Positions 10,219 through 43,190 of a DNA stretch of 58,040 nt are shown piece after piece. Made by a program: the position numbers and the translations under genes. This DNA is from Acidobacteriota bacterium (GTDB lineage Bacteria > Acidobacteriota > Thermoanaerobaculia > Thermoanaerobaculales > Sulfomarinibacteraceae), in NCBI GenBank assembly GCA_015493585.1, contig WGCW01000132.1, positions 1-58,040 on the forward strand, written 5' to 3'. Each line of letters opens with the position of its first letter. Positions within the stretch are counted from its first letter, which is position 1. Under the pieces are notes generated by a model that was not told the origin of the DNA, did not search any database, and saw nothing but the letters and a program-made list of their open reading frames with translations.

Positions 10219-10601
10219 TGTGCGCCTCCCTTCGGCGCCACGTGGCAGTTCCAGCAGTAGGGGGTTACACCCATGTACCCGTGGCAACGGTCACAGAATT
10301 GCTTCTTGTCGCGGTGACAGCCGAGGCACGTCCCGGTGAGGCTTCGAACGTACCGTTGGCCGTTCGAGTTGGTGAAGACGCGGTTGGCGTGGCGAACGGC
10401 CAGATCACGCCACCGGTTGAGCAGCTCCATGTGCGTCGCTCGCATCACCGGCGTCGCCTCGACACAACGCGTGTATCCCTTTGGGAGCTCCAGCTTCGGT
10501 GCGGCCGATGACGTGCCGTTGGCCACATTCAGCCAGAATGGAAAGGTGACCACGGCCAGGAAGAGCACCAAACCGGGAACGATCTTGCCGGCGTCATACA
10601 T
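10215..10601 (-). CDS. dsrJ: DsrJ, periplasmic triheme cytochrome c
   Basis: 128 aa from the ATG at 10601 (GGAGG nine bases upstream); a GTG two codons earlier is less well spaced. One N-terminal hydrophobic segment (about 8-28) acts as a signal/anchor. Three CXXCH haem motifs (CLGCH, CDRCH, CWNCH) lie in the C-terminal half, as in DsrJ of the DsrMKJOP complex. It overlaps the end of dsrK by 8 nt and dsrO by 4, indicating translational coupling. Confidence 0.94.
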   Translation of the reverse strand: MYDAGKIVPGLVLFLAVVTFPFWLNVANGTSSAAPKLELPKGYTRCVEATPVMRATHMELLNRWRDLAVRHANRVFTNSNGQRYVRSLTGTCLGCHRDKKQFCDRCHGYMGVTPYCWNCHVAPKGGAQ

Positions 10602-24831: not shown

Positions 24832-26265
24832 CTAATCCAGGATCAACGCTCTGTAGATCAGGTCGTGGAGGCCAACGACCTCGACGTCGCTCAGGCCGTT
24901 GTCTTCACAAACCTCTCGAAGCTGTTTCTTGCAATTTGCGCAGGGTGCCACCACGTAGTGGGCACCGGTGGCGCGGATCTGCTCGGCCTTCTTGACACCC
25001 GTGACGCCCGTCCGGTAGGGGCGGATCTCATCGACGGACACCGTTCCGCCACCCCCACCACAACAGAGGTTCCAGACCCCGTGGGGCTCCATCTCCACGA
25101 AGTCGGAGCAAAACGCTCGCAGGAGCTCCCTGGGTTGCTCAATGATCCAGCCGGTCCGCGCGATGTTGCACGGATCGTGATAGGTCACCCGCTCATCGAT
25201 GGCGCCGGGACGCAGGCGGATCTTCCCGTCCTTCCAGGCTCGCCATGTGTATTCCATGATATTGACCACTGGCGGGGCTTTCTTGCCCCCACCGAAGGTT
25301 TTCATGAACGCCTTGGCCGACCGGGATGCATGCCCGCATTCACCGATCAGAATCTTCTGGGCCCCAAGTCTCTTCAACTGGTCGACTTCCAGCCGCAGGC
25401 ACTTTTCCAGGACCCAGTCGTTGTAGAACAGTCCATAATTAATCCCGTCGAGGAACTGGGAGCTGATCGTCCACCTGTTCTGATCGCCGGCAGCGTAGAA
25501 CACTGTGGCAATTCCCATCAGCGTTTCAGCCTCCATCAGATAGTCGGAAACGGGTGCGAAGAACAGGAACTCAGCTCCCTCATGGTCAACTGGGAATGTG
25601 AGGTCGATGCCCTTGTCGTCCTTGATCTCTTCCTCAAGGAACTCCAGCGTGTCCTTGATCGCGGCCCACGGGATTGCGGAGGTGTTATGGGTTGCACCTT
25701 CGAGTTGCTCGCGGGTCGAGATCACCAGGGCCCGCGGGACGAGGCCGATCTCGGAGAGGACGTAGCGGGCGATATGGGTAACCAACCCGTGGTCGATTCC
25801 GAGCGGGCACTCGAGCGAGCATCTTCTGCATGCCGTGCAGTGGTAGTAACTTTCGGCCATCTCCAGGATCAGGTCGTCGGTCAGGTACGGCGTTCCCTTG
25901 AGATGGCCTTCGACGATCCCGCGGAGAGTGAAGTGGCGCCGGTAGGCCTCGAGGAGAAGGTTGGAACGGTAGCAGGGCACATCCTTCGGATCGTGGGTTT
26001 GCTGGTAGATTTGGCAGGCGCACGAACAATTGGCGCAGCGGGCGGGGATCCGGGCGTAGTTATCGATCACCTGGCGGTAATTTGTATGCTGAAGCACCGC
26101 CGCGAACGCTTCCAAGAAACGTCTGGGCAAGTCATCCGGCACGCGGTCCTTCTCGATGATATAGCTCAACCGCTCCTGGATCTTCTCCGGGGTCAGCTTT
26201 GGTTGGGAGAGCTTCGCAAGGAGTGCCGGTGAGAGTTGCGGGAGGGACTGTGAATGGACCTGCAT
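24832..26265 (-). CDS. DsrK/HmcF-like Fe-S oxidoreductase (HdrD family), paralogue 2
   Basis: 477 aa from the ATG at 26265 (GGAGG upstream); the longer frame to 26337 runs into the promoter and is rejected. Ferredoxin-like motifs (CANCSCACQIYQ, CTACRRCSLECPLG) and two CCG-type domains (IGECGHASRS, LCCGGGGGTV, CANCKKQ) are visible. The family contains the cytoplasmic catalytic subunits of Dsr, Hmc, Tmc and Qrc-like complexes. It is the first gene of U2 and forms a candidate transmembrane redox module with the following three genes. Confidence 0.9.
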   Translation of the reverse strand: MQVHSQSLPQLSPALLAKLSQPKLTPEKIQERLSYIIEKDRVPDDLPRRFLEAFAAVLQHTNYRQVIDNYARIPARCANCSCACQIYQQTHDPKDVPCYRSNLLLEAYRRHFTLRGIVEGHLKGTPYLTDDLILEMAESYYHCTACRRCSLECPLGIDHGLVTHIARYVLSEIGLVPRALVISTREQLEGATHNTSAIPWAAIKDTLEFLEEEIKDDKGIDLTFPVDHEGAEFLFFAPVSDYLMEAETLMGIATVFYAAGDQNRWTISSQFLDGINYGLFYNDWVLEKCLRLEVDQLKRLGAQKILIGECGHASRSAKAFMKTFGGGKKAPPVVNIMEYTWRAWKDGKIRLRPGAIDERVTYHDPCNIARTGWIIEQPRELLRAFCSDFVEMEPHGVWNLCCGGGGGTVSVDEIRPYRTGVTGVKKAEQIRATGAHYVVAPCANCKKQLREVCEDNGLSDVEVVGLHDLIYRALILD

Positions 26266-26320
26266 CGCATCCTCCGTCGCGTGGGTGAGCGCGAGAGCCG
26301 TTCCAGGCTTATAAAGGGAG

Positions 26321-26336
26321 AGCAATCTCCGTGCCA
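26321..26336 (-). promoter_or_regulatory. Predicted sigma54 promoter of U2 (Hmc-like operon)
   Basis: Minus strand TGGCAC-GGAGA-TTGCT matches the sigma54 consensus with correct spacing. The predicted start near 26309 gives a leader of about 44 nt to the start codon at 26265. A palindromic operator is centred about 107 bp upstream of the start. Confidence 0.88.
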
Positions 26337-26407
26337 CGGGAACCGGGGCGGAACCGGCGGTGGAGCCGTGTTTTCACATATTGGAGCGATCACGCAACCA
26401 TCATGTG

Positions 26408-28805: not shown

Positions 28806-30416
28806 TTAGTGGAAATCCCAGTCGATGAACCCCTCGCGCACGTCGACCATGGCGTTGACAACGAGCTCGACGAGGCCTCCGTACAGCATCCCGGTGCGTT
28901 CCCACGCCTGGTAGTAGCTGAGAAGATCGCGCATCTGCCCCTTGCAGTTGGAGCAGGGGGCGCACACGTACTTCTTCGTCTCGGGCTCGATACTGTCGGA
29001 AAAGGCTTCGAGAAGCTGTCGGAACTTCAGGCGTCCGGAAACCTTGGCCTTCCAGGATGGGAAGTTGAGAGACTGGCAGACGGCGAATCCGGATCCGCCC
29101 CCGCAGCAGTAGTTGTTGACTCCGTGGGGTTCCATCTCGCGGAAACGAGGTGCGATCTTCCTGAGGATGTTGCGCTGAGGCTGGATGATCCCCATTGAGC
29201 GTGTGATGTTGCATGGGTCATGGAGAGTGACCGGGAAGTCGTTGCGCGAAGGATCGAGCAGAATCTTCTCGTTGAGGACGAGATCCTCGAGCACGACGAG
29301 GCAGCTTTCCGAGCGCACCCGGAGCTCGTCCGGGATGAGCCGGTCGGCGACCGGCATGATGGCCTTGTGAGCATGGCCGCACTCGCCGACCATAATCTTC
29401 TTCACGCCGAGCTTTTTGGCGACCTCGTAGTGCTTCAGCGCCACGCGAGCGTACTGAACGTCGTCGTAGAAGAGGCCGTAGTTGACGGAATCGTAGCCAA
29501 CGAGCTCGGAGGAGAGGGTCCAGCTGATGCCGGCAAGGGTAAGAATGATGGCAAACGCCTGCAAATTCTCCGGCCAGGACAGGAACTCTCCGGCATTGTG
29601 CATGACCAGATACTCCGCCCCCTCCACGTCGAACGGGATCTTGATATTGATGCCCGTCTTTTCAAGGATGTCCTCTTCGGCGAATTCCATGACGTCCATA
29701 AGTCCGGCGGGGTTGAGGCCGGTCGAGGATCCAACCGTGAGCTGTTTGACGGTACCCTTCTCATGGAGCTCAGGCATGGCGATGCCAAGCTCCTGACTGA
29801 AGAGCTTGCGGATCTCGCGTGTGATGAGGCCGTTGTCGATGCCGACCGGACACGCTTGGGCGCAGCGCCGGCAGAGCGTGCAGCGGTAGGAGAGCTCGGC
29901 CAGCTTCACCAGGGTGTCCCAGCTGAGCTCGATATCATTGCCGCGGAGCGTCGGGAATACGTGGCCGCCTGGCTTGATGTAGCGGTCGACGATCTTACGC
30001 AGCATTTCCGCCCGGAAGGTTGGGCGATAGATCTCCATCCTTCCGGAGCCGGTGAAGATAGGGCAGGCCTCGGCGCACGTCTGACATTTGACGCAGTTGT
30101 CCATGGACAGGAGGAGTGGTTGCAGGAAGGTCCAGTTATTTTCACGGGTGAGCAACTTCTTCAACCCCTCGAGGAACTTCGCCACGAGCCGTTCCCGCGC
30201 TTCGTCGCTTGGAGGCACCGGAATCTGGGCTGCGCACACCCCGTCCGGCCCGGACTCGATTCGGCTCGCCTGGTCGTTACTCAAGCCGGGGATCGGCTCG
30301 TCGTGCCAATCCTCGTACGGAAAGGGCAGAGGAATCAGTTGATCAACGTCGACGGTCTCGTCTGCGGCGAGGAACATCTCCAGGTCCTTGAGAGGTTGAA
30401 TGGTGGCCTTCTGCAT
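28806..30416 (-). CDS. DsrK/TmcB-like Fe-S oxidoreductase (HdrD family), paralogue 3
   Basis: 536 aa. Ferredoxin motifs CVKCQTCAEACPIF and CTLCRRCAQACPVG precede two CCG-type domains (VGECGHAHKA, YCCGGGSGFAV, CAPCSNCKGQ). Length and domain order match DsrK, TmcB and HmcF. Its ATG overlaps the stop of the cytochrome b gene as ATGA, giving a DsrMK/TmcCB-like pair. No periplasmic cytochrome is encoded in this unit, so this pair may exchange electrons only between menaquinone and a cytoplasmic partner. Confidence 0.9.
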   Translation of the reverse strand: MQKATIQPLKDLEMFLAADETVDVDQLIPLPFPYEDWHDEPIPGLSNDQASRIESGPDGVCAAQIPVPPSDEARERLVAKFLEGLKKLLTRENNWTFLQPLLLSMDNCVKCQTCAEACPIFTGSGRMEIYRPTFRAEMLRKIVDRYIKPGGHVFPTLRGNDIELSWDTLVKLAELSYRCTLCRRCAQACPVGIDNGLITREIRKLFSQELGIAMPELHEKGTVKQLTVGSSTGLNPAGLMDVMEFAEEDILEKTGINIKIPFDVEGAEYLVMHNAGEFLSWPENLQAFAIILTLAGISWTLSSELVGYDSVNYGLFYDDVQYARVALKHYEVAKKLGVKKIMVGECGHAHKAIMPVADRLIPDELRVRSESCLVVLEDLVLNEKILLDPSRNDFPVTLHDPCNITRSMGIIQPQRNILRKIAPRFREMEPHGVNNYCCGGGSGFAVCQSLNFPSWKAKVSGRLKFRQLLEAFSDSIEPETKKYVCAPCSNCKGQMRDLLSYYQAWERTGMLYGGLVELVVNAMVDVREGFIDWDFH

Positions 30417-31691: not shown

Positions 31692-32042
31692 ATGGGAAGG
31701 TTGACCCGTATTTCCGCGACCGGTCCCGCGCTGCATGACGGAGATTGCAGCACCATTCGTGATTTTGTCGTTTTGTTTGCCAACCGCTTGAGACTCAAGC
31801 TTTTATGTCGTCTTGCGGAGGGTCCGGCGTGCGTGCACGAGCTGGTTGAAGCAACCGGCGACAAGCAGTCGAACGTTTCGCAACAACTGAAAATCCTTCA
31901 CGAAGCCGACTTTGTGAAACGGCGCCGGGTGGGAGCCCGGGTATACTACGAAATCGATGATCCGGTCACCGTTGAGGTACTGGATTTTCTGGTGTCAGCG
32001 GCACAGCGTCCGCGCGGATGGCAACCCCATCAAGTCAGCTGA
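31692..32042 (+). CDS. ArsR-family winged-helix transcriptional regulator
   Basis: 116 aa, with the ArsR HTH core (FANRLRLKLLCRLAEGPACVHELVEATGDKQSNVSQQLKIL split over residues 29-70) and wing VGARVYYEID. Cysteines 19, 39 and 47 are present; the ELCVCDL metal motif of ArsR is replaced by ACVHEL, so the inducer (metal, sulfide or redox) cannot be told. The ATG lacks a clear ribosome binding site and the -10-like box is only about 12 bp away, suggesting a leaderless message. It lies 12 bp before the first mrp-type gene and likely controls that operon. Confidence 0.87.
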   Translation: MGRLTRISATGPALHDGDCSTIRDFVVLFANRLRLKLLCRLAEGPACVHELVEATGDKQSNVSQQLKILHEADFVKRRRVGARVYYEIDDPVTVEVLDFLVSAAQRPRGWQPHQVS

Positions 32043-32054
32043 GGAGAATTCCCA

Positions 32055-32555
32055 ATGCAGCGTCTTCCTTCAATTCTGATCGCTATTGGACCGCTCTGGC
32101 TGTTGTGGATCGCCCTGACGGGCAGCACCGATCCGGAGGAGCTGGTGGCGGGCGGCATTGTCGCGGTGCTGGTGGCGGTGCTCGCTGGAGGCGAGCCGTT
32201 CAGCCCGGCCAGTCTGAAGATCTTTCAGCCCCGCCGTTTTGCGTACGCGCTGGCGTACATTCCCTACATGATCTGGGCGATCATCGTGGCGAACTTCGAT
32301 GTGGCCCGCCGGGTGATCGCTCCGAAGATGCCGATCCGCCCCGGGATCGTGACGGTGAAGACCAAGCTCAAGACGCCGGTGGGACGGCTGGCGCTGGCCA
32401 ATTCCATCACGTTGACCCCGGGGACACTGACTGTCGATATCTGCGGGGATGAGCTGTGTATCCACTGGATCTACGTTGCGCACGAGGACATTGAAGGCGC
32501 GACCCGGGAAATCGTGGAAGGTTTCGAAAAGTACCTGGAGGTGATCTTTGGCTAA
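32055..32555 (+). CDS. MrpE/MbxA-like membrane subunit
   Basis: 166 aa, MnhE family: two or three N-terminal hydrophobic segments, then the conserved LKIFQPRRFAYALAYIPYMIW and a cytoplasmic domain with TPVGRLALANSITLTPGTLTVDI. MrpE-type subunits belong to Mrp antiporters and to the ion-pumping arm of Mbh/Mbx complexes. The GAGGAG ribosome binding site follows the arsR-like stop. First structural gene of the Mbx-like operon. Confidence 0.9.
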   Translation: MQRLPSILIAIGPLWLLWIALTGSTDPEELVAGGIVAVLVAVLAGGEPFSPASLKIFQPRRFAYALAYIPYMIWAIIVANFDVARRVIAPKMPIRPGIVTVKTKLKTPVGRLALANSITLTPGTLTVDICGDELCIHWIYVAHEDIEGATREIVEGFEKYLEVIFG

Positions 32556-32808
32556 TCTACTGCTCGAGCTTGCCCTCGCCATCGGCGCTGCTGGGACATT
32601 GTTGGCCGTCGTCCGTTTGGTCAAGGGGCCGCGGGCCGCAAGCCGTGCCGTGGCACTCGATGTTTTGACACTGATCACGATGCCGATGATGGCCGCCTAC
32701 GGGCTCTACGCCGGCCGTCAGATTTACCTCGATGTTGCGCTCGTCTACGGCATTCTCTCGTTCCTCGGCGTGACCGCGCTGGCACGGTATGCCGACCGGG
32801 GGGTGTGA
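32548..32808 (+). CDS. MrpF/MbxB-like membrane subunit
   Basis: 86 aa with three hydrophobic segments, matching MnhF/MrpF (LVKGPRAASRAVALDVLTLI, VYGILSFLGVTALARY). It overlaps the MrpE-like gene by 8 nt. Small membrane subunit of the ion-translocating arm. Confidence 0.9.
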   Translation: MANLLLELALAIGAAGTLLAVVRLVKGPRAASRAVALDVLTLITMPMMAAYGLYAGRQIYLDVALVYGILSFLGVTALARYADRGV

Positions 32809-32809
32809 C

Positions 32810-33154
32810 ATGGTGCATCACATCGTTGGAGCGGTCTTCGTGCTGATCGGTGCGCTCTTCCTCTTCCTGGGTGCCCTTGGGATCGTGCGCATGCCCGATC
32901 TGTACAACCGGATGCAGACCGGAACGAAGGCGACGACCCTTGGCAACGTGTTGACGATGCTCGGACTGGGCATCATGCACCCTGCCTGGCTGTTGAAGCT
33001 GACGCTCATCGCCCTCTTCGTGCTCTTCACCAATCCGATCTCATCTCATGCGCTGGCCCGCGCCGCCCACCGGGTCGGTGTGCCCATGACGCCACTGACT
33101 GTGAAGGACACGCTCAAGGACAAGAAGCCGGTCGTGAAGGAGGCCGAGGTATGA
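32810..33154 (+). CDS. MrpG/MbxC-like membrane subunit
   Basis: 114 aa from the ATG at 32810, 1 bp after the MrpF-like stop. MnhG family: three hydrophobic segments with FLGALGIVRMPDLYNRMQ and KATTLGNVLTMLGLG. An ATG-like start at 32789 lies inside the preceding gene and is less likely. Confidence 0.9.
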   Translation: MVHHIVGAVFVLIGALFLFLGALGIVRMPDLYNRMQTGTKATTLGNVLTMLGLGIMHPAWLLKLTLIALFVLFTNPISSHALARAAHRVGVPMTPLTVKDTLKDKKPVVKEAEV

Positions 33155-33417
33155 ACATTGTGACGTGGCTGAATCTGGTTGACCTCCTCGTCTGTCTGGT
33201 CGTCATCATCTCGGCCATCGGTGCCGCCGTCCACAGAAACCTGCTTGCAGCGACGGTGTTTGCCGGTGTCGTCAGTTTGGCAATCTCGTTCCTCTTCCTC
33301 AGGCTTGCAGCCCCCGATGTTGCGATGACCGAGGCGGCCATTGGGGCCGGGCTTTCGACAGTCATCTTCCTGATCGCCGTGCGGCGGACCGAAGAAGTCG
33401 AGGGGAAAGACCAATGA
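33151..33417 (+). CDS. MbxD-like subunit (DUF4040 / MrpA C-terminal part)
   Basis: 88 aa with three hydrophobic segments and the conserved APDVAMTEAAIGAGLSTVIFL of MbhD/MrpA-C proteins. It overlaps its neighbours by 4 nt on each side. In Mbh/Mbx complexes this subunit lines part of the Mrp-type ion path. Confidence 0.88.
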   Translation: MNIVTWLNLVDLLVCLVVIISAIGAAVHRNLLAATVFAGVVSLAISFLFLRLAAPDVAMTEAAIGAGLSTVIFLIAVRRTEEVEGKDQ

Positions 33418-34115
33418 AACAGATTATTTCCATCATCGCCATTGTCACGATCGGCTTTGTGCTATGGCAGCTGGTTCCGATCGCGATGCCGTCCGGTTTT
33501 GGGGCCGTGACCCATCATTACGTCGCCGATGGCCTCAAGGATAACGGTGGATCGAACCTCGTGACCTCGATTGTTGTCAACTATCGTGGCTTTGACACGT
33601 TGGGCGAGGTGACCGTACTGTTCCTCTCGGTCAGCGGGGCGGCGTTCGTGCTGCGCCGCCGGTCCGGCCTGGAGGTTCAAGAACCCGTTCCCGCCAGTGA
33701 GATCGTGCAGACCGGCGCCCGGATGCTGTTTGCGCCGATCGTGGTCTTTGGCGCGTACATCTTCGTCCACGGTCACCTGACACCTGGCGGGGGGTTTCAG
33801 GGTGGCGCGGTCATCGCCTCCGGCGTACTGCTCCTGTTGCTGGCCAATCGTGACCGCGCGCTCCCGCACGGACTCTTGAGCTGGGTCGAGTCATTATCCG
33901 GGTTTGGGTTCGTCCTGGCGGGTTTAGCCGGTTTGATCGTGGCTGGCTCGTTTCTCGCCAACAAGGGGGTGCTCCCCCTGGGTCAGTGGAACCGGCTGGT
34001 TTCGGCGGGCGTCATTCCGATCATCTACATCTTGATCGGGCTCAAGGTCGGATCCGAGCTCTCGGTGTTGCTCGACGTCATGGTGCACGCCGCCGGTGAC
34101 GAGGAGGCAAACTGA
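33414..34115 (+). CDS. MrpB/MbxF-like subunit with extra N-terminal part (E+F type)
   Basis: 233 aa, longer than a plain MrpB. Residues 1 to about 90 resemble the MbhE/MrpA-terminal segment (NYRGFDTLGEVTVLFLSVSGAAF). About 100-225 is MnhB-like, with the signature VFGAYIFVHGHLTPGGGFQGGAV. It therefore appears to combine two Mrp subunits that are separate in Mbh. It overlaps the next gene by one base. Confidence 0.88.
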   Translation: MKQIISIIAIVTIGFVLWQLVPIAMPSGFGAVTHHYVADGLKDNGGSNLVTSIVVNYRGFDTLGEVTVLFLSVSGAAFVLRRRSGLEVQEPVPASEIVQTGARMLFAPIVVFGAYIFVHGHLTPGGGFQGGAVIASGVLLLLLANRDRALPHGLLSWVESLSGFGFVLAGLAGLIVAGSFLANKGVLPLGQWNRLVSAGVIPIIYILIGLKVGSELSVLLDVMVHAAGDEEAN

Positions 34116-34498
34116 TGATGGCGGGAAACGAACTGTACGTCGCGACGGGGCTGATCGTCATCCTGATCGGATTTGCCACCGTTCTTGTCAAACGCAACCT
34201 GCTGAAGATCGTCATCGGCTTCTCGCTGATCGATAGCGGGACGAACCTGCTGATCGTCGCGCTGGGCTTCTATCCTGGCAGGACGGCGCCGATCGTCAAT
34301 AACCCGGACATGCTGGCAAACCGGGCATCCCTTCTGGTGAACACGGCAAAAGTCGTCGATCCGGTGCCGCAAGCGCTCGTGCTCACCGCGATCGTGATCG
34401 GCGTCGGCGTCACGGCGCTGATGCTCGCGTACGTTGTCCGGCTCTACGCAACTGGAAAGACCCTTGATGTTCGTCAGTTCGGGAGGATGAAGTGGTAA
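34115..34498 (+). CDS. MrpC/MbxG-like (NuoK-like) membrane subunit
   Basis: 127 aa, three hydrophobic segments, NuoK/MnhC family (LVKRNLLKIVIGFSLIDSGTNLL, DPVPQALVLTAIVIGVGVTAL). It overlaps the large antiporter gene by 7 nt. Part of the ion-pumping membrane arm. Confidence 0.9.
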   Translation: MMAGNELYVATGLIVILIGFATVLVKRNLLKIVIGFSLIDSGTNLLIVALGFYPGRTAPIVNNPDMLANRASLLVNTAKVVDPVPQALVLTAIVIGVGVTALMLAYVVRLYATGKTLDVRQFGRMKW

Positions 34499-37400
34499 AT
34501 CCGATTCTGCTCATTGGCGTTCCCCTGGCGGTTGCATTCCTCCTGCCCCTGGTGGACATGTTGGGGCGCCGGACCGCCCGTGCGGTCCACCTGCTGACGC
34601 TGGCCTTCGAGCTTTTCGTGGCAGGCGAATGGCTGGTGCAGTTTCTCCACGGTGCCGCCGCGGTCAACATCATCACCGGTGGCTGGGCTCCCCCGATCGG
34701 CATCAATCTGCGCCTCGGTCCGCTGGAAGCGGCGCTGGTCTGCCTGGCGGCGCTGACCGGGATCGGCTCGGCGTTGTACCTGGCCCATCACGAAGAGGTT
34801 GGGAGCCTGAGAGGGCTCGTGATCCAGCTGCTCCTGGTTACCGGTGCAATCGGTCTAATCATGACCCGGGACGTGTTCAACACCTTTGTCTTCTTAGAGA
34901 TCAGCGGCATCGGCACCTACTCGATCGTCATTTTCGGGAAGGAACGGTCCGCGCTCGAGGCCGGTTTCAAGTACATCGCCTTAGGAGGCGCGGCCTCGAC
35001 ATTCTTCCTGCTCGGCGTCGCCTTCCTCTACAAGATCACGGGGACACTAAACCTCGACGACATGATTCACAAGCTCCCGATGGCCGTCGTCGCTGGGACA
35101 GGGACCGTGCTCCTGCTTTTGATGGTTGGCATCATGTCCGAGCTCAAGCTGTTTCCGCTCAACGGTCCGGCGATCGATCTGTACGACGGCGTGGAACCTG
35201 GGGTGATGGCGCTGATCGTCGGGACGACGGTCAACGCGCTCTTCTTCGTCTTCTGGAAGATTTCAGCCCTCTATACGGGACCGGCATGGGCGGCGATGTT
35301 TGCCTCAGTGGGCATGACCACCTTCCTCGTCTGTAACGTGCTGGCGATTCGTCAGACGAGGGTCCGGAGGATGCTGGGCTACTCCTCCTCGGCCCAGATT
35401 GGTTTGCTCGTCTTCTTGGTTCCGTTTGTCAAGTCGGGCGAGGTTGCGCTGTCTGCCATCGCGCTGCTGCTGGTCAACCACACGTTTGCAAAGGCCGGGC
35501 TGCTCTGGCTGGCCGGGACCCACGGCGGCGAGAAGATCAAGGAGTGGAAGGGGGCGTTCTCCGATTCGCTGGCTCTCCGGATTGCACTGGCCACGTTCGT
35601 CCTGGCCATGACGGGCCTTCCGCCGTTTCCCGGTTTCTGGGGCAAGTGGCAGGCGCTGGTCGGCCTGGCTCAGCACGGCCATGGATGGTGGATCGGTGCA
35701 GTGCTCGTTGGTTCGCTCTTTGAATTCGTGTACTACTTCGGGTGGCTGAAAGAAGCGCTGACGCCGGCTGAAACGGTTCCGCGCGGTGCCGTTGGATCAC
35801 CGCTCAGCGAAGTCTTCGGATCGCTCCTCTACGCGGGTCTGGCGATTGCGCTCGGTGCGAAAGTGCTGATGCAGGTGTGGGGCGGGTTCAAGACGCCAGC
35901 GATCTTCCTGGGAGCGGCTGGCTTCGTGCTGCTCTTCATCCGGGCGCTCCCTGAACGCTTCAAGGCGGCGTTGACACTTGTCGCTGTCGCCTGGGTGGCG
36001 TGGGGTGTTTTCGCCGGAGCTCGCGCCTGCCCGCTGTGGGACATTCGCGGCTTCTTCCTCGTCATGGTGCTCTTTGGCGCATTCGTGATTTCAGTCGCCG
36101 GCCTTGGGATCCCGGCTGAGCGTGGAAGCTTCTGGGGGCTGTTCCTGATCCTGGTTGGTTCCATCATCGGCATCCTCTACTCCAGCTCGCTGCTCGGGTT
36201 CTTCGCGGGCTGGGAGCTGATGACATGGTCGAGCTACCTGCTGGTCAGCCAGGGCCGGCATGGCCCGAAGGCTGGTTACCTCTACATGCTCTTTGCAGCC
36301 GCTGCCGGCCTGCTCGTGCTCGGTGGCATGATGGTGGCCGAGAGTGCAGGTGTGACGACGCTGGCCGCCCTGGTTTCGCTCTCGGGCGGCGTGGCGCTCG
36401 CGGCGTGGGGGCTGCTGGCTGTTGGATTCGCCGTCAAGGTTGCCTCGTGGGGCGCGCACATCTGGGCGCCCGGCGCGTACGCCGAATCTCCAGATCTCTT
36501 CACGCCGTTCCTGTCCGGGGTGATCTCCAAGATTCCCATTTTCGGGCTTGCCGCTGTCGTCGCCAGGATCGCGGCTCCCTCCGTGGCGACGGCGATCAGC
36601 TCGATCAGCGTCGCTCACATCCTTGGATGGGTTGGGGGGCTGACGGCGTTTGGGATGACCCTGCTCGCCGTCTTCCAGGAAGACATGAAGAAGCTGCTGG
36701 CGTATTCCTCCGTTGGCCAGGTCGGGTACGTGGTTCTGGCGATGGCGCTCCTGACGCCGCTGGGGTGGACCGCCGCGCTCTACTACGCCGTCAATCACTT
36801 CCTGTTCAAAGGGCTGCTCTTCCTCGCGATCGCTGGGGTGATCTACCGTACCGGAGTGCGGACATTCGCAGATACCGGTGGCCTGATCAAACGGATGCCG
36901 CTCTCCTTCATTGCCGTTCTGATCGGCATCATCGCGCTGGCCGGGGTGCCGCCGCTGTCGGGCTTTGCGGGCAAGTGGCTCCTGTATGAAGCGTTGATGG
37001 ACAAGGGGTGGCTCTTCCTGACGGCGTTCATGATGCTGGCGTCGGTGATGGCGTTTCTCTACTGCTTCCGCCTGATCCACTCGATCTTCCTCGGACAGTT
37101 GAAGGACAAGGACCGTAACGTCCGGGAAGCGCCGTGGCCGCTGTTACTGGCTGAGCTTCTGATGGTGATTCCCATCCTGGCCCTGTCCGTACGGCCCCAA
37201 CTGTTGATCGAGCCGCTCCAGCACCTCGTCACCGGCGTCTTCGGCGTGCCGGGCGTCCGGTTCGCCAGCGCGGCGACGATGACGACGCATTTCGGGTATT
37301 TCAACGCGGCCGCCATGATGGCGCTGGTCGTCGTGCTGTTCCTCGTCCTGCTGTTCATCCTGCTGACGGTGGGGCCAAAGCCGACGAAGGTTAAGCAGCT

Positions 37401-37656
37401 CGACATCGTGTATGCGGCCGAGGTGCCGCCCTCGCCCGAGGAGCTCCAGTACGCGTGGGCGTTCTACCGGCCGTATGAGCGGGCGTTCGCCCCGCTGCTC
37501 AAGGCGCGGGTCACGGCGTTTTGGCACGGTGTCGTCGACGTTGTCGAGGGGGTCGCGGAGGCCGGGCGCCGTTTCTACACGGGCAATGCCCAGACGTACG
37601 TGCTCTATTCGGTGCTCTTTATTCTCGTGCTCGCCGCCTTTGGCCTGGCGAGGTAG
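34492..37656 (+). CDS. Fused double antiporter-like subunit (MbxH-MbxH')
   Basis: 1054 aa, roughly twice a normal MrpD/NuoN-type protein. Domain 1 (about 1-490) keeps the antiporter residues E136 (FVFLEISGIG), K219 (MSELKLFPLNG) and K334 (NHTFAKAGLLW). Domain 2 (about 520-950) repeats them as E575 (FAGWELMTW), K649 (AVKVASWGAHIWAPGAY) and K773 (NHFLFKGLLF). A C-terminal extension ends in one more membrane segment. Archaeal Mbx/Mbs operons carry two separate antiporter genes, H and H', at this position. Both halves look functional, so the complex should have two ion channels. GTG start. Confidence 0.9.
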   Translation: MVNPILLIGVPLAVAFLLPLVDMLGRRTARAVHLLTLAFELFVAGEWLVQFLHGAAAVNIITGGWAPPIGINLRLGPLEAALVCLAALTGIGSALYLAHHEEVGSLRGLVIQLLLVTGAIGLIMTRDVFNTFVFLEISGIGTYSIVIFGKERSALEAGFKYIALGGAASTFFLLGVAFLYKITGTLNLDDMIHKLPMAVVAGTGTVLLLLMVGIMSELKLFPLNGPAIDLYDGVEPGVMALIVGTTVNALFFVFWKISALYTGPAWAAMFASVGMTTFLVCNVLAIRQTRVRRMLGYSSSAQIGLLVFLVPFVKSGEVALSAIALLLVNHTFAKAGLLWLAGTHGGEKIKEWKGAFSDSLALRIALATFVLAMTGLPPFPGFWGKWQALVGLAQHGHGWWIGAVLVGSLFEFVYYFGWLKEALTPAETVPRGAVGSPLSEVFGSLLYAGLAIALGAKVLMQVWGGFKTPAIFLGAAGFVLLFIRALPERFKAALTLVAVAWVAWGVFAGARACPLWDIRGFFLVMVLFGAFVISVAGLGIPAERGSFWGLFLILVGSIIGILYSSSLLGFFAGWELMTWSSYLLVSQGRHGPKAGYLYMLFAAAAGLLVLGGMMVAESAGVTTLAALVSLSGGVALAAWGLLAVGFAVKVASWGAHIWAPGAYAESPDLFTPFLSGVISKIPIFGLAAVVARIAAPSVATAISSISVAHILGWVGGLTAFGMTLLAVFQEDMKKLLAYSSVGQVGYVVLAMALLTPLGWTAALYYAVNHFLFKGLLFLAIAGVIYRTGVRTFADTGGLIKRMPLSFIAVLIGIIALAGVPPLSGFAGKWLLYEALMDKGWLFLTAFMMLASVMAFLYCFRLIHSIFLGQLKDKDRNVREAPWPLLLAELLMVIPILALSVRPQLLIEPLQHLVTGVFGVPGVRFASAATMTTHFGYFNAAAMMALVVVLFLVLLFILLTVGPKPTKVKQLDIVYAAEVPPSPEELQYAWAFYRPYERAFAPLLKARVTAFWHGVVDVVEGVAEAGRRFYTGNAQTYVLYSVLFILVLAAFGLAR

Positions 37657-37665
37657 GAGGGGTTC

Positions 37666-38577
37666 ATGCCGTTAGGTATCAAAATCGCCTGGTCGTTTCT
37701 GGGCGTCCTCGTGGCAATCGCCTATGGGCTTGTGATTGCAGGAATCATCCGGAAGGTGATGGCCCGGATCCAGGGCCGCATCGGGCCGCCGGTTTGGCAG
37801 CAGTTCATCGACCTCGGCAAGGTCATCTTCCAACGGACGGCGACCCGTCACGGTTGGATGTTCTACCTCGCCCCGATCTTCAGGGCTGGGGGCGGCATCG
37901 GCCTGTACCTGCTGATTCCGGTCGTCATCGGTGTGCCGGCTCTCTCGAACTTCTCCTTCAACGGCGATCTGCTGCTCGTCATGTACTTCATCTTCTTTGG
38001 CTCGCTGGGCATGGCGCTTGGGGCCGCGGATTCCGGGCATCCTCACTCGCCGATCGGGATCTCGCGTGGTCTGTCGCAGATGACCGCGTACGAGCTGCCG
38101 TTCGCCCTCGCCATGGTGGCGCTGGCCGCGCAGGTGCACTCGTTCTCGATCCACGACATCATCATGGCGCAGCAGGGCGGGATCCTGCACTGGAACCTCT
38201 TCGCGAATCCGCTGGCGGCGATTGCGGCGTTCATCGCGTTCCTCGGCATGAACATGTACGCGCCGTTCAATATCGTCGGGGCTCCGCAGGAGATCCCCGT
38301 TGGTCCTCCAACGGAGTACAACTCGATCTTCCTGTCGTTGATGATGAGCGGGCGGGCGATCCTGGCCGTCGCCAAGATCGTGCTCTACATGGACCTGTTC
38401 CTCGGTGGAGCCCACAGCATCTTGGCCGCGTTCGTCAAGACGATCATCATCTATTTCTGGTCGGTGTTCGTTGGCGCCGTCTTTCCCCGGTTCAGAACGG
38501 AGCAGGCCGTCCGCTTCTTCCTCGGCTGGCCGACCGTCGCCGGCATCGCTGGCGTGCTCCTGGTCCTGATCCGGTAG
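37666..38577 (+). CDS. NuoH-like membrane anchor subunit (MbxM)
   Basis: 303 aa with about eight hydrophobic segments, NuoH/HyfC family (RIQGRIGPPVWQQFIDLGKVIFQR, SRGLSQMTAYELPFALAMV, NIVGAPQEIPVGP). It anchors the peripheral J-K-L-N module to the membrane arm. Its place before J, rather than after L, is the Mbx/Mbs order and not the Mbh hydrogenase order. AGGAGG precedes the ATG. Confidence 0.92.
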   Translation: MPLGIKIAWSFLGVLVAIAYGLVIAGIIRKVMARIQGRIGPPVWQQFIDLGKVIFQRTATRHGWMFYLAPIFRAGGGIGLYLLIPVVIGVPALSNFSFNGDLLLVMYFIFFGSLGMALGAADSGHPHSPIGISRGLSQMTAYELPFALAMVALAAQVHSFSIHDIIMAQQGGILHWNLFANPLAAIAAFIAFLGMNMYAPFNIVGAPQEIPVGPPTEYNSIFLSLMMSGRAILAVAKIVLYMDLFLGGAHSILAAFVKTIIIYFWSVFVGAVFPRFRTEQAVRFFLGWPTVAGIAGVLLVLIR

Positions 38578-38586
38578 GAGGCATGC

Positions 38587-39237
38587 ATGGATAACAAACC
38601 GAAGTCCACGTTACCGGTGCTCGTCGAGCCTCCCAAGGGCGCACAGCCTCACGGCCCCCTGGGGCACGGCTACTTCCTCGGCGAGACGAAACGGCAGCAG
38701 GCCCTGCCCATGCGGGAATCGCTGGCGAAGATCAAGAACTGGTTCCGGGCCAACTCGTTGTGGGTGATGGCGTACGGCACGGGGTGCGGCGGGATCGAGC
38801 TGCGTCCTCTGACGACGGCGCGGTTCGACTTCGAGCGGTTTGGGATGGCGATGCGCCCAACGCCGCGGCAGTCGAACGTGATCATCATCTCCGGCTACCT
38901 CGCGGTCAAGTCGCTCAAGCGGGTGATCCGTGCCTACGAGCAGATGCCGAGTCCGAAGTGGGTCGTTGGCCTCGGCTCGTGCACGATCAACGGTGGCATG
39001 TACTGGGACTCGTACAACACGATCAACCGGCTCGATCTCTACGTGCCGGTCGATATCTACATCGCGGGTTGCATGCCGCGGCCCGAGGCGTTGCTGGCCG
39101 GTTTTGGCGAGCTGATGAAGATGATCAAGCGGGGCGAGGCCAACGGGTGGAACCACTACCTCGAGAACTTCGACTGGTACAAGGAAAACCAGAAGAAGGT
39201 GATCAACGACTGGAACATGCCCGATTACAACTGGTAG
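38587..39237 (+). CDS. NuoB-like Fe-S subunit (MbxJ)
   Basis: 216 aa. The core matches NuoB/small hydrogenase subunits, with Cys ligands in GTGCGGIELRP, GLGSCTINGGMY and AGCMPRPEALLAG for a single proximal [4Fe-4S] cluster. The first motif has one Cys followed by GGIE instead of the CC of NuoB. The N-terminal 50 residues are an extension beyond the core. It pairs with the L subunit to form the interface where the terminal acceptor or quinone-like site would lie. Confidence 0.9.
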   Translation: MDNKPKSTLPVLVEPPKGAQPHGPLGHGYFLGETKRQQALPMRESLAKIKNWFRANSLWVMAYGTGCGGIELRPLTTARFDFERFGMAMRPTPRQSNVIIISGYLAVKSLKRVIRAYEQMPSPKWVVGLGSCTINGGMYWDSYNTINRLDLYVPVDIYIAGCMPRPEALLAGFGELMKMIKRGEANGWNHYLENFDWYKENQKKVINDWNMPDYNW

Positions 39238-39243
39238 GTCATC

Positions 39244-39789
39244 ATGATGCACATTCTTGACGAAATCCGGGAACGGTTTGGGGCCGAGTGGCAGAACGAG
39301 CAGCGCCCCGATCTCCTTCAGATCGGTGTGCAGGCCAAAACGATTGTGCCGCTGCTAACCTGGCTCAAGGCGCATACACCGTTCGTCCAGCTCACACATC
39401 TCTCCGCGGTCGACTGGATCGAGGATGGCGAATTCCAGTTGACCTACCTGCTGACCGATCCGAAGGCGCACGTTTCGTTGATGGTGTGCACCCGGATCGA
39501 TCGTGAGCAGGCCGAGGCGGAATCGATCCATGCGTTGTGGCCGCAGGCGGTGACGTACGAGCAGGAGATCAACGAGATGTTTGGCATCCACTTCCCGGGT
39601 AGCCCCCGGCAAGGCGTGCCGTTCATTCTCGAAGGCTGGAACGATATTCCTCCGATGCGGCGCGACTTCGACACCGTGGCCTACATGAATTCGCACCACC
39701 CGTCGCGCCCGGGCCGGGAGCACACCGATCCGCGGGCGTACATCGGCAAGGTTTTCGGTGAGAGGGGGTATCTCCATGACGACGACTGA
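39244..39789 (+). CDS. NuoC-like subunit (MbxK)
   Basis: 181 aa, NuoC 30-kDa family (PFVQLTHLSAVDWIEDGEFQ, SIHALWPQAVTYEQEINEMFGIHFPG). No cofactor motifs, as expected for this structural subunit. The start is at 39244 or the adjoining ATG at 39247. Its end overlaps the L gene by about 14 nt. Confidence 0.9.
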   Translation: MMHILDEIRERFGAEWQNEQRPDLLQIGVQAKTIVPLLTWLKAHTPFVQLTHLSAVDWIEDGEFQLTYLLTDPKAHVSLMVCTRIDREQAEAESIHALWPQAVTYEQEINEMFGIHFPGSPRQGVPFILEGWNDIPPMRRDFDTVAYMNSHHPSRPGREHTDPRAYIGKVFGERGYLHDDD

Positions 39790-40906
39790 GACGGCTGAGC
39801 TGAGACGGCGGGTCCAACTCTGGTTTGGACCTCAGCATCCTGGCATCACCGGGAACATGTCGGTGCAGGCCTGGCTCGAGGGAGATACCCTGACGGCGGG
39901 CGTGACCCACGTCGGTTACCTCCACCGCGGGTTCGAGAAGCTGATGGAACGCCGGCGCTACATCCAGTCGTTCCCGATCGTGTGCCGGATCTGCGTTCCC
40001 GAGCCCGACACGAACGAGTACCTCCTCGCGGCCGGCTTGGACGAGCTTTCGGGGCTCGCGGCCGAGGTTCCCGAGCGCGGGCGGTGGATCCGGACGCTCG
40101 TGCTTGAGATGTCCCGGCTTCAGATGAACCTGATGACCCTTGGCGGACACATCGGCGCCATGGCGATGGGCGCAGCTCCGAACTGGTTGATCGCCATGCG
40201 TGACTTTGTGCTCGACCGGTTCGAGGAGCTGACGGGCGGGCGTATCTACCACATGTTCATCACGTACGGCGGTGTACGCAGGGACCTGCCCGAGGGGTTC
40301 GCCGAGCGGATGGAAGCGGATCTGGAGGCGATCGAAGAGAAGCTCCCGCTGGTCGATAACGTGATCTTCGATTCGTCGGTCTTCAGGAAGCGCGCGATCG
40401 GCGTTGGCGTCGTTCCCGAGGAGTGGGTCGATGAGATGAGCCTCTCCGGCCCGATCGTGCGTGCGATGGGGATCCCCCGTGACGTGCGCAAGGATTTCCC
40501 GTACGAGAAATATCCGGAGCTCGACTTCGAGGTCGTGACGACCACGGGCTCGGATATCTACGCCCGGGCCTGGGTCCGCCGGCAGGAGATCGCGCAGTCG
40601 ATCGACCTGATCCGCCAGATCCTGCGCAAGATGCCGGAGGGCCCATACTGCGCGAAGCTCCCGAACATGCTGACGTGGACCATCCCCCCCGGCCAGACCT
40701 ACGTCCGGGCGGAGGCGACCCGCGGCGAGATGGGGTACTACGTCGTGACCGACGGATCGGACAAGGTGCGCCGGGTTCACGTGCGCGCCCCATCGTACGT
40801 GCACGGTGTCGCGCTGCTCGAACGGATGATTCCGGGAACGAATATCGCGGACCTCGCACCTCTGATGGTGTCATTCCAGGTTTGTCCGCCCGAGATGGAG
40901 AGGTAG
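39776..40906 (+). CDS. NuoD / large-subunit-like protein (MbxL) with atypical cysteine set
   Basis: 376 aa from the ATG at 39776 with AGAGGGGG upstream. NuoD/[NiFe]-hydrogenase large-subunit fold (FGPQHPGITGNMSVQ, HVGYLHRGFEKLMERR). The N-terminal metal motif is retained as PIVCRICVPEPD, a CXXC. At the C-terminus only one Cys remains (FQVCPPEMER): the second position of the hydrogenase CXXC is Glu. With an incomplete four-Cys set it is unlikely to be a normal hydrogenase, agreeing with Mbx/Mbs sulfane-reductase-type complexes. Confidence 0.9.
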   Translation: MTTTETAELRRRVQLWFGPQHPGITGNMSVQAWLEGDTLTAGVTHVGYLHRGFEKLMERRRYIQSFPIVCRICVPEPDTNEYLLAAGLDELSGLAAEVPERGRWIRTLVLEMSRLQMNLMTLGGHIGAMAMGAAPNWLIAMRDFVLDRFEELTGGRIYHMFITYGGVRRDLPEGFAERMEADLEAIEEKLPLVDNVIFDSSVFRKRAIGVGVVPEEWVDEMSLSGPIVRAMGIPRDVRKDFPYEKYPELDFEVVTTTGSDIYARAWVRRQEIAQSIDLIRQILRKMPEGPYCAKLPNMLTWTIPPGQTYVRAEATRGEMGYYVVTDGSDKVRRVHVRAPSYVHGVALLERMIPGTNIADLAPLMVSFQVCPPEMER

Positions 40907-40915
40907 GAGGCTCGG

Positions 40916-42727
40916 ATGAGCGTCAAACATACGCTGGCACCGTTTTCAGCCTGGTTGCAGGCGTTTTCGAAGCCATTCACGTTGCCCGACAAGCACGGGT
41001 ACCGTGAGGGCGCCGACCGGTACCGCGGCTGGCACATCAACGATACGAAGAAGTGCATCGGCTGCGGGAGCTGCGCCGAGATCTGTCAGAACGTCGCCAT
41101 CGACATGGTCCCGGTCGATGATCCCGTCAAGGGGGATTCTGGCCTGCGCCCCCGGGTCGATTACGGCCGCTGTTGCTGGTGCGCGCTGTGCGTCGATGTC
41201 TGCCCGTCTGGCTCGCTCGGGATGTCCAACGAGTACATCTGGGTCGAGGCGGATGCGGACAAGTTCCGCTACATCCCCGGCGTCGATCCGAAACCGTGGG
41301 ACAACGCCGAGAAGGGTTGGCGGCAGGAGGAAGGGTTCGATCTGGTCGATCACGAGCGGGTGCCGATGCCGATGCTCGATCCTGCCGAGCGGACCAAGAC
41401 CTGGGCAGAGGTTGTCATTGGGTACAGCGAGGAGGAGGCCCGCCAGGAGGCCTCGCGGTGCGTCGAGTGCGGTTTGTGCGTCGCCGCATGCCCGGCTCAC
41501 ATGCACATCCCCGACTACATTGCCGCCATCCGGGACGGCGACGATATTGCAGCGCTCAACATCATCTACGACAACAACCCGATGCCGGAAATGTGCGGCA
41601 AGGTCTGCACGAGGCGGTGCGAGGGTGTCTGCTCGATCGGCGTTCAGGGTGATCCGCTGGCGATCCGCTGGCTCAAGCGGTACGTGACGGAGCAGTTCGA
41701 CGACCTGAAAGATGTCGTGCACGCCGAGGTCGAACGGGTCGGCGAGGGGAAGAAGGTTGCCATCGTCGGTGGCGGACCGTCAGGTGTGACGGTCGCGTAC
41801 TACCTGGCGATCCGCGGGTTCGACGTCACGATCTACGAGGCGTTGCCGCAGCTCGGTGGTGCGACGTTCTTCGGTATTCCGAAGTACCGTTTCCCGATGC
41901 CATCGCTCGAAAAGCAGGTCAAGCTGTTGACCGACTCCGGTGTCAAGATCGTCACCAATCACCGCGTCGAGAAGGATGAGATGCGGCAGCTTGTCAAAGA
42001 CAACGACGCGGTGTTCATCGGAACCGGCTTGATGAAGCCGTACGGCCTCCGGGCGCCGGGCGAGGATCTGCCCGGTGTGATGTATGCGCTCGACATGTTG
42101 CGGGACCATCACATCGGGAAGAAGGTCGATATCACCGGGAAAGTCGTCGTCGTTGGGGGTGGCAACGTCGCAATCGATGCTTCGCGCGTCTCACTGCGGT
42201 TGGGAGCGGAGGTGACCATCGCGTACCGCCGCCGTAAGGTTGATATGCCTGCTGACGACGAGGAGATCGAGGATGCCGAGGCTGAGGGCGTCGAGATCAT
42301 TCCTCAGGCGATCCCGTTGCGGGTCGAGCAAACCGGTGACGGGCGGCTCGACTTCATCTGGGGTCCTGCCGAGATGGTGCAGGAAGAAGAGGGCCGCCGG
42401 CCGCGGCCCAAGCTGATCGAAGGTGTCGAGAACCACATGATCGTCGATCGCGTCATCGTGGCGATTGGTCAGGGTGCCGAGCATAGCTGGATGCCTGAGG
42501 AGATCGCCGAGAAGATCGCGGACAAGCGCGGGTGGATCACCGTCGACGAGAACGGGATGACTGCGTACGAAGGCATCTTCGCCGGTGGCGATCTCGTCAA
42601 CAGCACGGCCGATGCCATCTCGGCGATTGCCGATGGCCTGCGGGCGGTCGTGGGAATCCAGAAATACGCCGGCGTGTTACCCCAAGCCGAGGACGAGGGC
42701 AGTGAGCCCGTCGCGATCGCCAAGTAA
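40916..42727 (+). CDS. Fusion: NuoI/MbxN-like ferredoxin + GltD/NfnL-like NAD(P)H oxidoreductase
   Basis: 603 aa. Residues 1-115 are the NuoI/MbxN-like part with two [4Fe-4S] motifs (C47/50/53/57 and C86/89/92/96). From about 170 a GltD-type module follows: N-terminal Fe-S region (CVECGLCVAACP, CGKVCTRRCEGVCSIG), FAD site VAIVGGGPSGVTVAYYL and NAD(P)H site VVVVGGGNVAIDASRVSLRLG with downstream YRRRKVDMPA. Archaeal MbxN lacks this flavoprotein. The fusion would feed NAD(P)H electrons (or a bifurcated/confurcated mixture with ferredoxin) directly into the membrane complex. AGGAGG precedes the ATG. Confidence 0.92.
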   Translation: MSVKHTLAPFSAWLQAFSKPFTLPDKHGYREGADRYRGWHINDTKKCIGCGSCAEICQNVAIDMVPVDDPVKGDSGLRPRVDYGRCCWCALCVDVCPSGSLGMSNEYIWVEADADKFRYIPGVDPKPWDNAEKGWRQEEGFDLVDHERVPMPMLDPAERTKTWAEVVIGYSEEEARQEASRCVECGLCVAACPAHMHIPDYIAAIRDGDDIAALNIIYDNNPMPEMCGKVCTRRCEGVCSIGVQGDPLAIRWLKRYVTEQFDDLKDVVHAEVERVGEGKKVAIVGGGPSGVTVAYYLAIRGFDVTIYEALPQLGGATFFGIPKYRFPMPSLEKQVKLLTDSGVKIVTNHRVEKDEMRQLVKDNDAVFIGTGLMKPYGLRAPGEDLPGVMYALDMLRDHHIGKKVDITGKVVVVGGGNVAIDASRVSLRLGAEVTIAYRRRKVDMPADDEEIEDAEAEGVEIIPQAIPLRVEQTGDGRLDFIWGPAEMVQEEEGRRPRPKLIEGVENHMIVDRVIVAIGQGAEHSWMPEEIAEKIADKRGWITVDENGMTAYEGIFAGGDLVNSTADAISAIADGLRAVVGIQKYAGVLPQAEDEGSEPVAIAK

Positions 42728-42737
42728 GGGAGAGCCT

Positions 42738-43190
42738 ATGGAGTTCAACTCGGTTCACGACATTTTGGATTTCGCCATTTCAAAGGAACAGGAAGCGCAT
42801 GATCTCTACGTGCATCTTGCGGAGATCGTCTCCCGGCCCGAGCTCAAAAAGACCTTCGGCGAGTTTGCGCAGATGGAGCTGGGCCACCGGACGCGCCTCG
42901 AGAAAATCAAGGCTGGTGAGCTGCCGGGGCTCCCGGATACGGTCGTCCAGGATCTGAAGCTCTCCGATTTTCTCGTTGACGTCAGCCCGCACGCGAACAT
43001 GGATTACCAGGATGCGATCCTCTTCGCGATGAAGGCCGAGAAACGAGCGTACGATCTGTACATCGCTCTCGGTCAGGCAACCTCGGATGCAGGCGTGCGT
43101 CAGGTCTTTGATGGGCTTGCTCAGGAGGAGCTCAAGCACAAGCAGTTCTTCGAGGCAGAGTACGACGACGTCATCCTCGAGGGCAACTGA
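42738..43190 (+). CDS. Ferritin-like/rubrerythrin-type diiron protein
   Basis: 150 aa from the ATG at 42738 (GGGAGAG upstream), 10 bp after the Mbx-like operon and probably part of it. Four-helix diiron features are visible as ISKEQEAHDLYVHLAE, QMELGHRTRLEKI, MKAEKRAYDLYIALG and AQEELKHKQFFE. No rubredoxin tail. Such proteins reduce peroxide or handle iron/oxidative stress. It is a different family member from the one in the dsr operon at 18112. Confidence 0.87.
   Translation: MEFNSVHDILDFAISKEQEAHDLYVHLAEIVSRPELKKTFGEFAQMELGHRTRLEKIKAGELPGLPDTVVQDLKLSDFLVDVSPHANMDYQDAILFAMKAEKRAYDLYIALGQATSDAGVRQVFDGLAQEELKHKQFFEAEYDDVILEGN

Follow-up and report, generated by a model that had tools for sequence, protein, structure and literature searches.

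The last gene of a 12-gene operon in the window (that is, the whole 58,040-nt stretch of DNA that was analysed) encodes a two-cluster, MbsN/NuoI-like ferredoxin that is continuous with a complete flavoprotein of the GltD/NfnL type, at what appears to be the electron entry point of an MBS-like ion pump. We propose, with a probability of about 60%, that the encoded complex is an ion-translocating NADP(H):sulfane oxidoreductase of the MBS/MBX type, and that it is probably reversible. This proposal builds on direct observations of the fusion, the operon, an MBS-type catalytic site, an NADP(H)-type motif, their conservation, and a single origin within the sample.

A ferredoxin subunit fused to a flavoprotein

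The fusion is a 603-aa ORF that starts with ATG and has no internal stop (Table 1). Pfam places a Fer4 dicluster domain at residues ~43–99, the two-cluster Fer4_20 domain at 160–262 and Pyr_redox_2 at 279–574, in line with an earlier note on this DNA that had read the gene as a NuoI/MbxN-like ferredoxin joined to a full FAD/NAD(P)H module. Among solved structures, residues 7–127 are best matched by MbsN (6u8y_N, 86.6 bits, above every NuoI chain), and residues 146–585 by NfnL proteins. The AlphaFold model of the fusion is confident (pLDDT 87.8, pTM 0.83), and its residues 142–589 align with NfnL at a Z score of 46 and 2.0 Å over 444 residues. In a VIA-align structure comparison, which barely tested the N-terminal domain, no NuoI/MbsN match to that domain was listed; its identity as MbsN rests on the sequence match to 6u8y_N.

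The earlier note had named a frameshift, by which a sequence error spuriously joined two genes, as something that would undo its reading. Conservation rules out this and an assembly error alike, and we give such an artefact next to no probability: homologues with 39–94% identity are continuous single ORFs across many unrelated assemblies (51 non-redundant continuous fusions, from many phyla), all 17 cysteines of the fusion are kept in nearly all of them, and the 16 expected cluster ligands (the Cys of four cluster motifs) are present in 39 of 39 aligned fusions. We found nothing in its support. Moreover, NCBIfam includes a model that spans the whole fusion (NF010590/PRK13984, ‘putative oxidoreductase’), which carries no function annotation. 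The window's protein matches this model end to end (1.6e-178, 594.6 bits) at a score below its cut-off of 946 bits, and is best described as a divergent relative or subgroup of PRK13984 that shares its architecture.

Two further NuoB/NuoD/NuoI sets occur in the same genome, both with a stand-alone NuoI, so within this genome the fusion is specific to the MBS-type complex. A NuoB–NuoCD–NuoI set of this genome (L061, 8978–11680) has no membrane subunits alongside it within 20 kb.

Table 1. Features of the window, with the basis for each assignment
Feature	Coordinates	Strand	Basis or remarks
DsrK	10594..12213		True DsrK, 730 bits
DsrL-2 type protein	16332..18074	−	PRK12771 577.7 bits against a cut-off of 516; YRR present
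DsrK/TmcB/HmcF-like protein	24832..26337		Inside an Hmc-like cluster
Further DsrK-like paralogue	28806..30416		Judged by eye
ArsR/SmtB-type regulator	31692..32042	+	Just 5′ of the operon; NF033788 75.8 bits
MbsA, mrpE-like	32055..32555	+	Pfam MNHE; best solved match 6u8y_A 161.6 bits, next 78.2
MbsB, mrpF-like	32548..32808	+	By order; position and homologues in conserved operon
MbsC, mrpG-like	32789..33154	+	By order; position and homologues in conserved operon
MbsD, MbhD-type	33151..33417	+	Pfam MbhD 1.2e-21
MbsE, mrpB-like	33414..34115	+	Best solved match 6u8y_E 167.5 bits, next 67.5
MbsG, mrpC-like	34115..34498	+	By order; position and homologues in conserved operon
MbsH + MbsH′, antiporter-like pump subunits, one 1054-aa gene	34492..37656	+	N half resembles 6u8y_H; C half resembles 6u8y_X (MbsH′) up to the C-terminus
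MbsM, NuoH-like membrane anchor	37666..38577	+	Best solved match 6u8y_M 138 bits, next 62
MbsJ, NuoB-like	38587..39237	+	Best solved match 6u8y_J 227.5 bits, next 142.5; three-Cys proximal cluster C67, C132, C162
MbsK, NuoC-like	39244..39789	+	Best solved match 6u8y_K 68.7 bits, next 37.4
MbsL, NuoD-like	39758..40906	+	Best solved match 6u8y_L 304 bits, Nqo4 213; C85/C385 counterparts present, quinone residues missing
Fusion	40916..42727	+	MbsN/NuoI two-[4Fe-4S] ferredoxin ~1–140; Fer4_20 160–262; FAD/NADP(H) module 279–585
Rubrerythrin-like protein	42739..43190	+	Pfam Rubrerythrin; directly 3′ of the fusion

An operon in MBS order

The 12 genes follow one another in the order mrpE, mrpF, mrpG, mbhD, mrpB, mrpC, MbsH-MbsH′, nuoH, nuoB, nuoC, nuoD and fusion, with intergenic gaps of −32 to +9 nt from mrpE through to the fusion. 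The MBS of Pyrococcus furiosus (6u8y) is the best match for each of the nine subunits that were compared, namely A, E, H, H′, M, J, K, L and the N portion of the fusion, a ranking made within the MBS/MBH/complex I/Mrp superfamily of solved structures; the identities of B, C, D and G come from Pfam/NCBIfam or from position. The 13-subunit complement A-B-C-D-E-G-H-H′-M-J-K-L-N is thus present in MBS order, as the earlier note had it (an Mbx/Mbs arrangement with the fusion last); unlike in P. furiosus, MbsH and MbsH′ are a single gene. Many relatives also have the single gene and others have two (L065, for example); in L062, from the same genus, the MbsH-MbsH′ match breaks at residue 657/662.

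The earlier note had proposed a database search for the fusion beside Mbx/Mbs genes. The same operon is present at every fusion locus with enough flanking sequence, in all large branches of the tree and in an essentially constant order. The loci were collected through the fusion, so this conservation is counted among fusion carriers only. At L031/L075, mbhD and mrpG have exchanged places.

A catalytic site of the MBS type

In MBS, the catalytic proximal cluster has three Cys ligands, a fourth Cys (C25) being out of reach, and two further Cys are left over from the old [NiFe] site (PMC7684303). Each of these features has a counterpart here. Aligned to MbsJ, the three Cys of the proximal cluster are invariant (39/39; motif TGCGGIE), the position of C25 is taken by Gly in 34 sequences and by Cys in five (n=39), and the second Cys of complex I is missing from 38 of the 39 NuoB-like sequences. 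Among 50 NuoD-like sequences, the position of Nqo4 H38 is T, E or N and never His, that of Y87 is Val, and the counterparts of MbsL C85 and C385 are C79 (in 48) and C376 (in 44); an extra C76 is present in 43. Judged by these residues, the catalytic site is MBS-like.

Three other classes of complex were considered and rejected. Plain complex I is ruled out: the quinone residues are absent, and the operon has no NuoEFG gene. For a Group 4 [NiFe] hydrogenase the Cys set is incomplete, the second Cys of the C-terminal pair being replaced (CPPE). Of an Nfn bifurcating transhydrogenase there is the L-type half alone; no NfnS-like gene was seen in the operon. By every core feature tested, the complex is of the MBS/MBX kind, with the entry subunit as the sole exception: MBS/MBX has a stand-alone MbsN, and in every carrier found here this protein is fused to a flavoprotein. 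Because a stand-alone MbsN marks the archaeal type of complex, and not the catalytic core, we consider the complex to be a variant and not a plain MBS. The core of the earlier note is thereby upheld, namely that a Mbx/Mbs-type, complex-I-like pump carries, on its ferredoxin subunit, a flavoprotein unrelated to NuoEFG; the module is of the GltD/NfnL type.

Nucleotide specificity and the electron donor

Of 39 aligned fusions, 38 carry the motif YRR at residues 437–439, and the two glycine motifs for dinucleotide binding are intact. NfnB holds NADP by its phosphate through the YRR residues, and among DsrL proteins those with YRR use NADP(H) whereas those without it prefer NAD(H) (PMC7596348). Given the conservation of YRR, and its use in NfnB and DsrL, the nucleotide of the fusion is likely to be NADP(H).

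Another residue of interest is Lys254, which in all fusions occupies the position of the Glu or Gln that we take (in part from PMC7596348) to be a cluster ligand in NfnL and DPD. We had regarded this Glu-to-Lys change as proof against electron bifurcation, an argument that we dropped: NfnABC (9n5u) is bifurcating and likewise has a Lys where NfnL has its ligand, so Lys254 decides the matter neither way.

These observations bear on a different reading, in which ferredoxin remains the donor to the pump while the GltD/NfnL module shuttles electrons back and forth between NADP(H) and ferredoxin, or else bifurcates or confurcates them as Nfn does. The closest solved structure to the flavin half is indeed a bifurcating subunit, NfnL; archaeal MBS uses ferredoxin (PMC7684303), and the published model of the Thermotoga maritima complex assumes it (PMC9431562). 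However, no NfnS-like partner gene was seen in the operon, there is no evident route from the flavin to a second acceptor, and the invariant Lys254 also speaks against bifurcation, if weakly, in view of NfnABC; we consider this alternative somewhat unlikely. Ferredoxin may nevertheless be a co-donor to the NADP(H):sulfane oxidoreductase that we favour: its docking face may remain usable, and NADPH need not be the only donor.

Proposed electron route and energetics

We infer an electron route, a substrate, an ion coupling and a direction of flow from the simplest path that the parts present would allow: NADPH to FAD, through the clusters, to MbsJ and on to sulfane sulfur. NADPH would pass a hydride to the FAD of the GltD/NfnL-like module, from which single electrons would travel via the two [4Fe-4S] clusters of the flavin module, and then via the pair in the fused MbsN-like ferredoxin domain, before reaching the three-Cys proximal cluster of MbsJ; there, the S–S bonds of sulfane or polysulfide would be cut, with coupling to ion translocation via MbsM, MbsH′ and MbsH. 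Fermenters would run the complex forward; sulfur oxidizers may run it backward, such that the ion gradient generates NADPH from sulfide or persulfide.

The potential of NADPH is −320 mV under standard conditions and ~−370 mV in cells, while those of S0/HS− and polysulfide are −270 and −260 mV. From these potentials, electron transfer from NADPH to polysulfide yields 10–21 kJ per electron pair, or about one ion at 180 mV; with ferredoxin as donor, the same calculation gives ~2.3 ions. This yield, a modest one for a type of pump that in MBS runs on ferredoxin, counts against our main reading. That it amounts to only about one ion per electron pair also makes a reversible enzyme plausible.

The link to sulfur and the direction of flow

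The earlier note had connected the complex to the dsr genes beside it, and one part of that connection survives. We found no match to dsr queries upstream of the operon in L062 (same genus) or L063; adjacency is lost even within the genus, so the dsr genes of the window look like chance neighbours, and we rejected a specific tie to that operon. What holds is co-occurrence across genomes: dsrA is present in 15 of 15 gammaproteobacterial carriers tested and in three of four carriers of the window's order. Among 321 Gammaproteobacteria, dsrA is found in 14/14 carriers versus 88/307 non-carriers (Fisher p 5.6e-8, a value that ignores the carriers' shared ancestry and so overstates the evidence, although at least two separate fusion clades are involved); this association speaks for our main reading. 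Beyond Acidobacteriota and Gammaproteobacteria, by contrast, no tested carrier has dsrA, a point against it.

The window also encodes a DsrL-2 type protein, the GltD-type core and YRR motif of which resemble those of the fusion; the likeness of the core had been recognized in the earlier note. Unlike the fusion, it has an extra ferredoxin domain at its C-terminus. DsrL is the soluble partner of DsrAB. Sulfur reduction in the window organism may possibly draw on two entry points for NADPH.

That note had NAD(P)H feeding sulfur reduction, which describes one direction only: the energetics, together with the distribution among sulfur oxidizers, leave the reverse open. Indeed, the reverse mode might be the main job of the complex, the ion-motive force lifting electrons that sulfide or persulfide gives up at the proximal cluster onto NADP+, as a quinone-independent source of NADPH. 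In addition to the dsrA in every gammaproteobacterial carrier tested, 12 of those 15 have a RuBisCO-family gene; the uphill step from about −270 to −370 mV costs ~19 kJ per pair, payable by one to two ions; and DsrL-type enzymes run both ways with NAD(P)(H) (PMC7596348). On the other hand, fermenters such as T. maritima, in which mbxA is up with sulfur (PMC9431562), point to reduction, and there is no RuBisCO match in the window organism or its relatives. We think it unlikely that reverse flow is the principal function. A division by lifestyle, whereby the complex is reversed in sulfur oxidizers to provide quinone-free NADPH for carbon fixation, and is a forward-running, NADPH-fed sulfur-reducing pump in fermenters, strikes us as rather improbable.

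It is also conceivable that the same complex acts on another sulfur substrate, such as an organic trisulfide, a DsrC-type trisulfide or glutathione persulfide, and not on free polysulfide. MBS reduces dimethyl trisulfide in vitro (PMC7684303), an acceptor of higher potential would fit a multi-channel pump, and the co-occurrence with dsrA in Gammaproteobacteria agrees with such a role; yet many carriers are without dsrA, and the substrate of the chamber is unreadable from sequence. We regard this substitution for the sulfane or polysulfide of our main reading as quite doubtful.

Flanking genes

The ArsR/SmtB-type regulator occupies the same place in L013, L015, L017 and L040 (the window's clade), in which its three Cys (near the N-terminus, in LCRL and in ACV) are kept. 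It is only weakly similar to BigR (41 bits, where the cut-off is 155), so we do not consider it a proven sulfur sensor; it could be a persulfide sensor. A gene for Rex, the NADH/NAD+ sensor, lies just upstream of the operon at ~10 loci from Fermentibacterota and part of Acidobacteriota (among them L066 3077–3703, L067 15015–15641, L068 3638–4279, L069 2960–3580 and L073 2613–3260), and a TetR-type protein is encoded just upstream in the clade close to the PRK13984 model. The presence of Rex beside the operon counts in favour of our main reading. That Rex, ArsR and TetR differ by clade amounts to repeated exchange of regulators around one operon.

A rubrerythrin-like gene also follows the fusion at L013, L015, L017, L040, L031, L045 and the gammaproteobacterial L085–L088, and is kept in the window's clade and both gammaproteobacterial clades; perhaps its product shields an exposed cluster from oxygen.

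Relation to known systems

With the MBS of P. furiosus (6u8y; PMC7684303) the window's complex shares the set and order of subunits, the three-Cys proximal cluster and the loss of quinone residues. The two differ at the entry point: the MbsN of P. furiosus stands alone and is fed by ferredoxin, whereas that of the window continues into an NADP(H) flavoprotein of 440 residues. The flavin half in turn resembles NfnL/NfnB and GltD (37–40% identity, Z of 44–46 to NfnL, YRR, Fer4_20), from which it differs in having no NfnS or GltB partner, in being joined to the ferredoxin subunit of an ion pump, and in its Lys254 at the Glu ligand position.

The usual view of complex I is that a hydrogenase/MBS-like core gained NuoEFG as its NADH dehydrogenase module. 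A GltD/NfnL-type flavoprotein, unrelated to NuoEFG and joined to an MBS-type pump at that same point of entry, would be a parallel solution, and through it sulfur oxidizers may gain a quinone-free route to NADPH.

The MBX of T. maritima has been described as a ferredoxin-dependent homologue of MBS (PMC9431562, PMC2246101), and neither of these papers mentions an NAD(P)H module; the T. maritima protein above the PRK13984 cut-off has the same fused architecture as that of the window. The fusion therefore bears on the electron donor of bacterial MBX, which is ferredoxin in published models, and this can be tested in cultured T. maritima. The earlier note had asked whether the fusion was a common and already characterised subunit. 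Common it is, with an existing NCBIfam model, yet in the literature that we found it is apparently uncharacterised: no functional characterisation of PRK13984 or TM1217 came to light in a search that was incomplete for MBX reviews, where an earlier remark is possible.

Distribution and origin of the fusion

The fusion is not peculiar to the window organism: besides the NCBIfam model and T. maritima, a single contig scan returned full-length fusions from Acidobacteriota, Krumholzibacteriia, Planctomycetota, Aminicenantes, Cloacimonadota, Fermentibacteria, Flavobacteriales, Bacteroidales, Calditrichia, Spirochaetales, Chitinispirillaceae and Gammaproteobacteria. By genome, the fusion is borne by 42/125 Cloacimonadota, 17/42 Fermentibacterota, 14/321 Gammaproteobacteria, 2/345 Bacteroidota and 9/247 Acidobacteriota (for the last, only matches reaching the ferredoxin half were counted), a few of the fusions in these counts being cut by contig ends. 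The protein of T. maritima was the only one among the control genomes to exceed the PRK13984 cut-off, and its fused architecture is read from that profile score.

A tree built on the GltD part places 49 fusions on one side of a branch with support of 100/99, and 14 unfused relatives on the other. Since the fusions are all on one side, the joining event would have happened once within the sampled tree, and the fusion apparently then spread across many phyla. Within the window's order, an MBS-type NuoD is present in only four of 37 genomes, a patchiness suggestive of horizontal transfer or loss. The fusion is present in two to four copies in some genomes: in several of Fermentibacterota and Cloacimonadota (G321, G323, G326, G327, G1049 and G1056) these copies fall into clearly different score classes, perhaps one for each direction or substrate.
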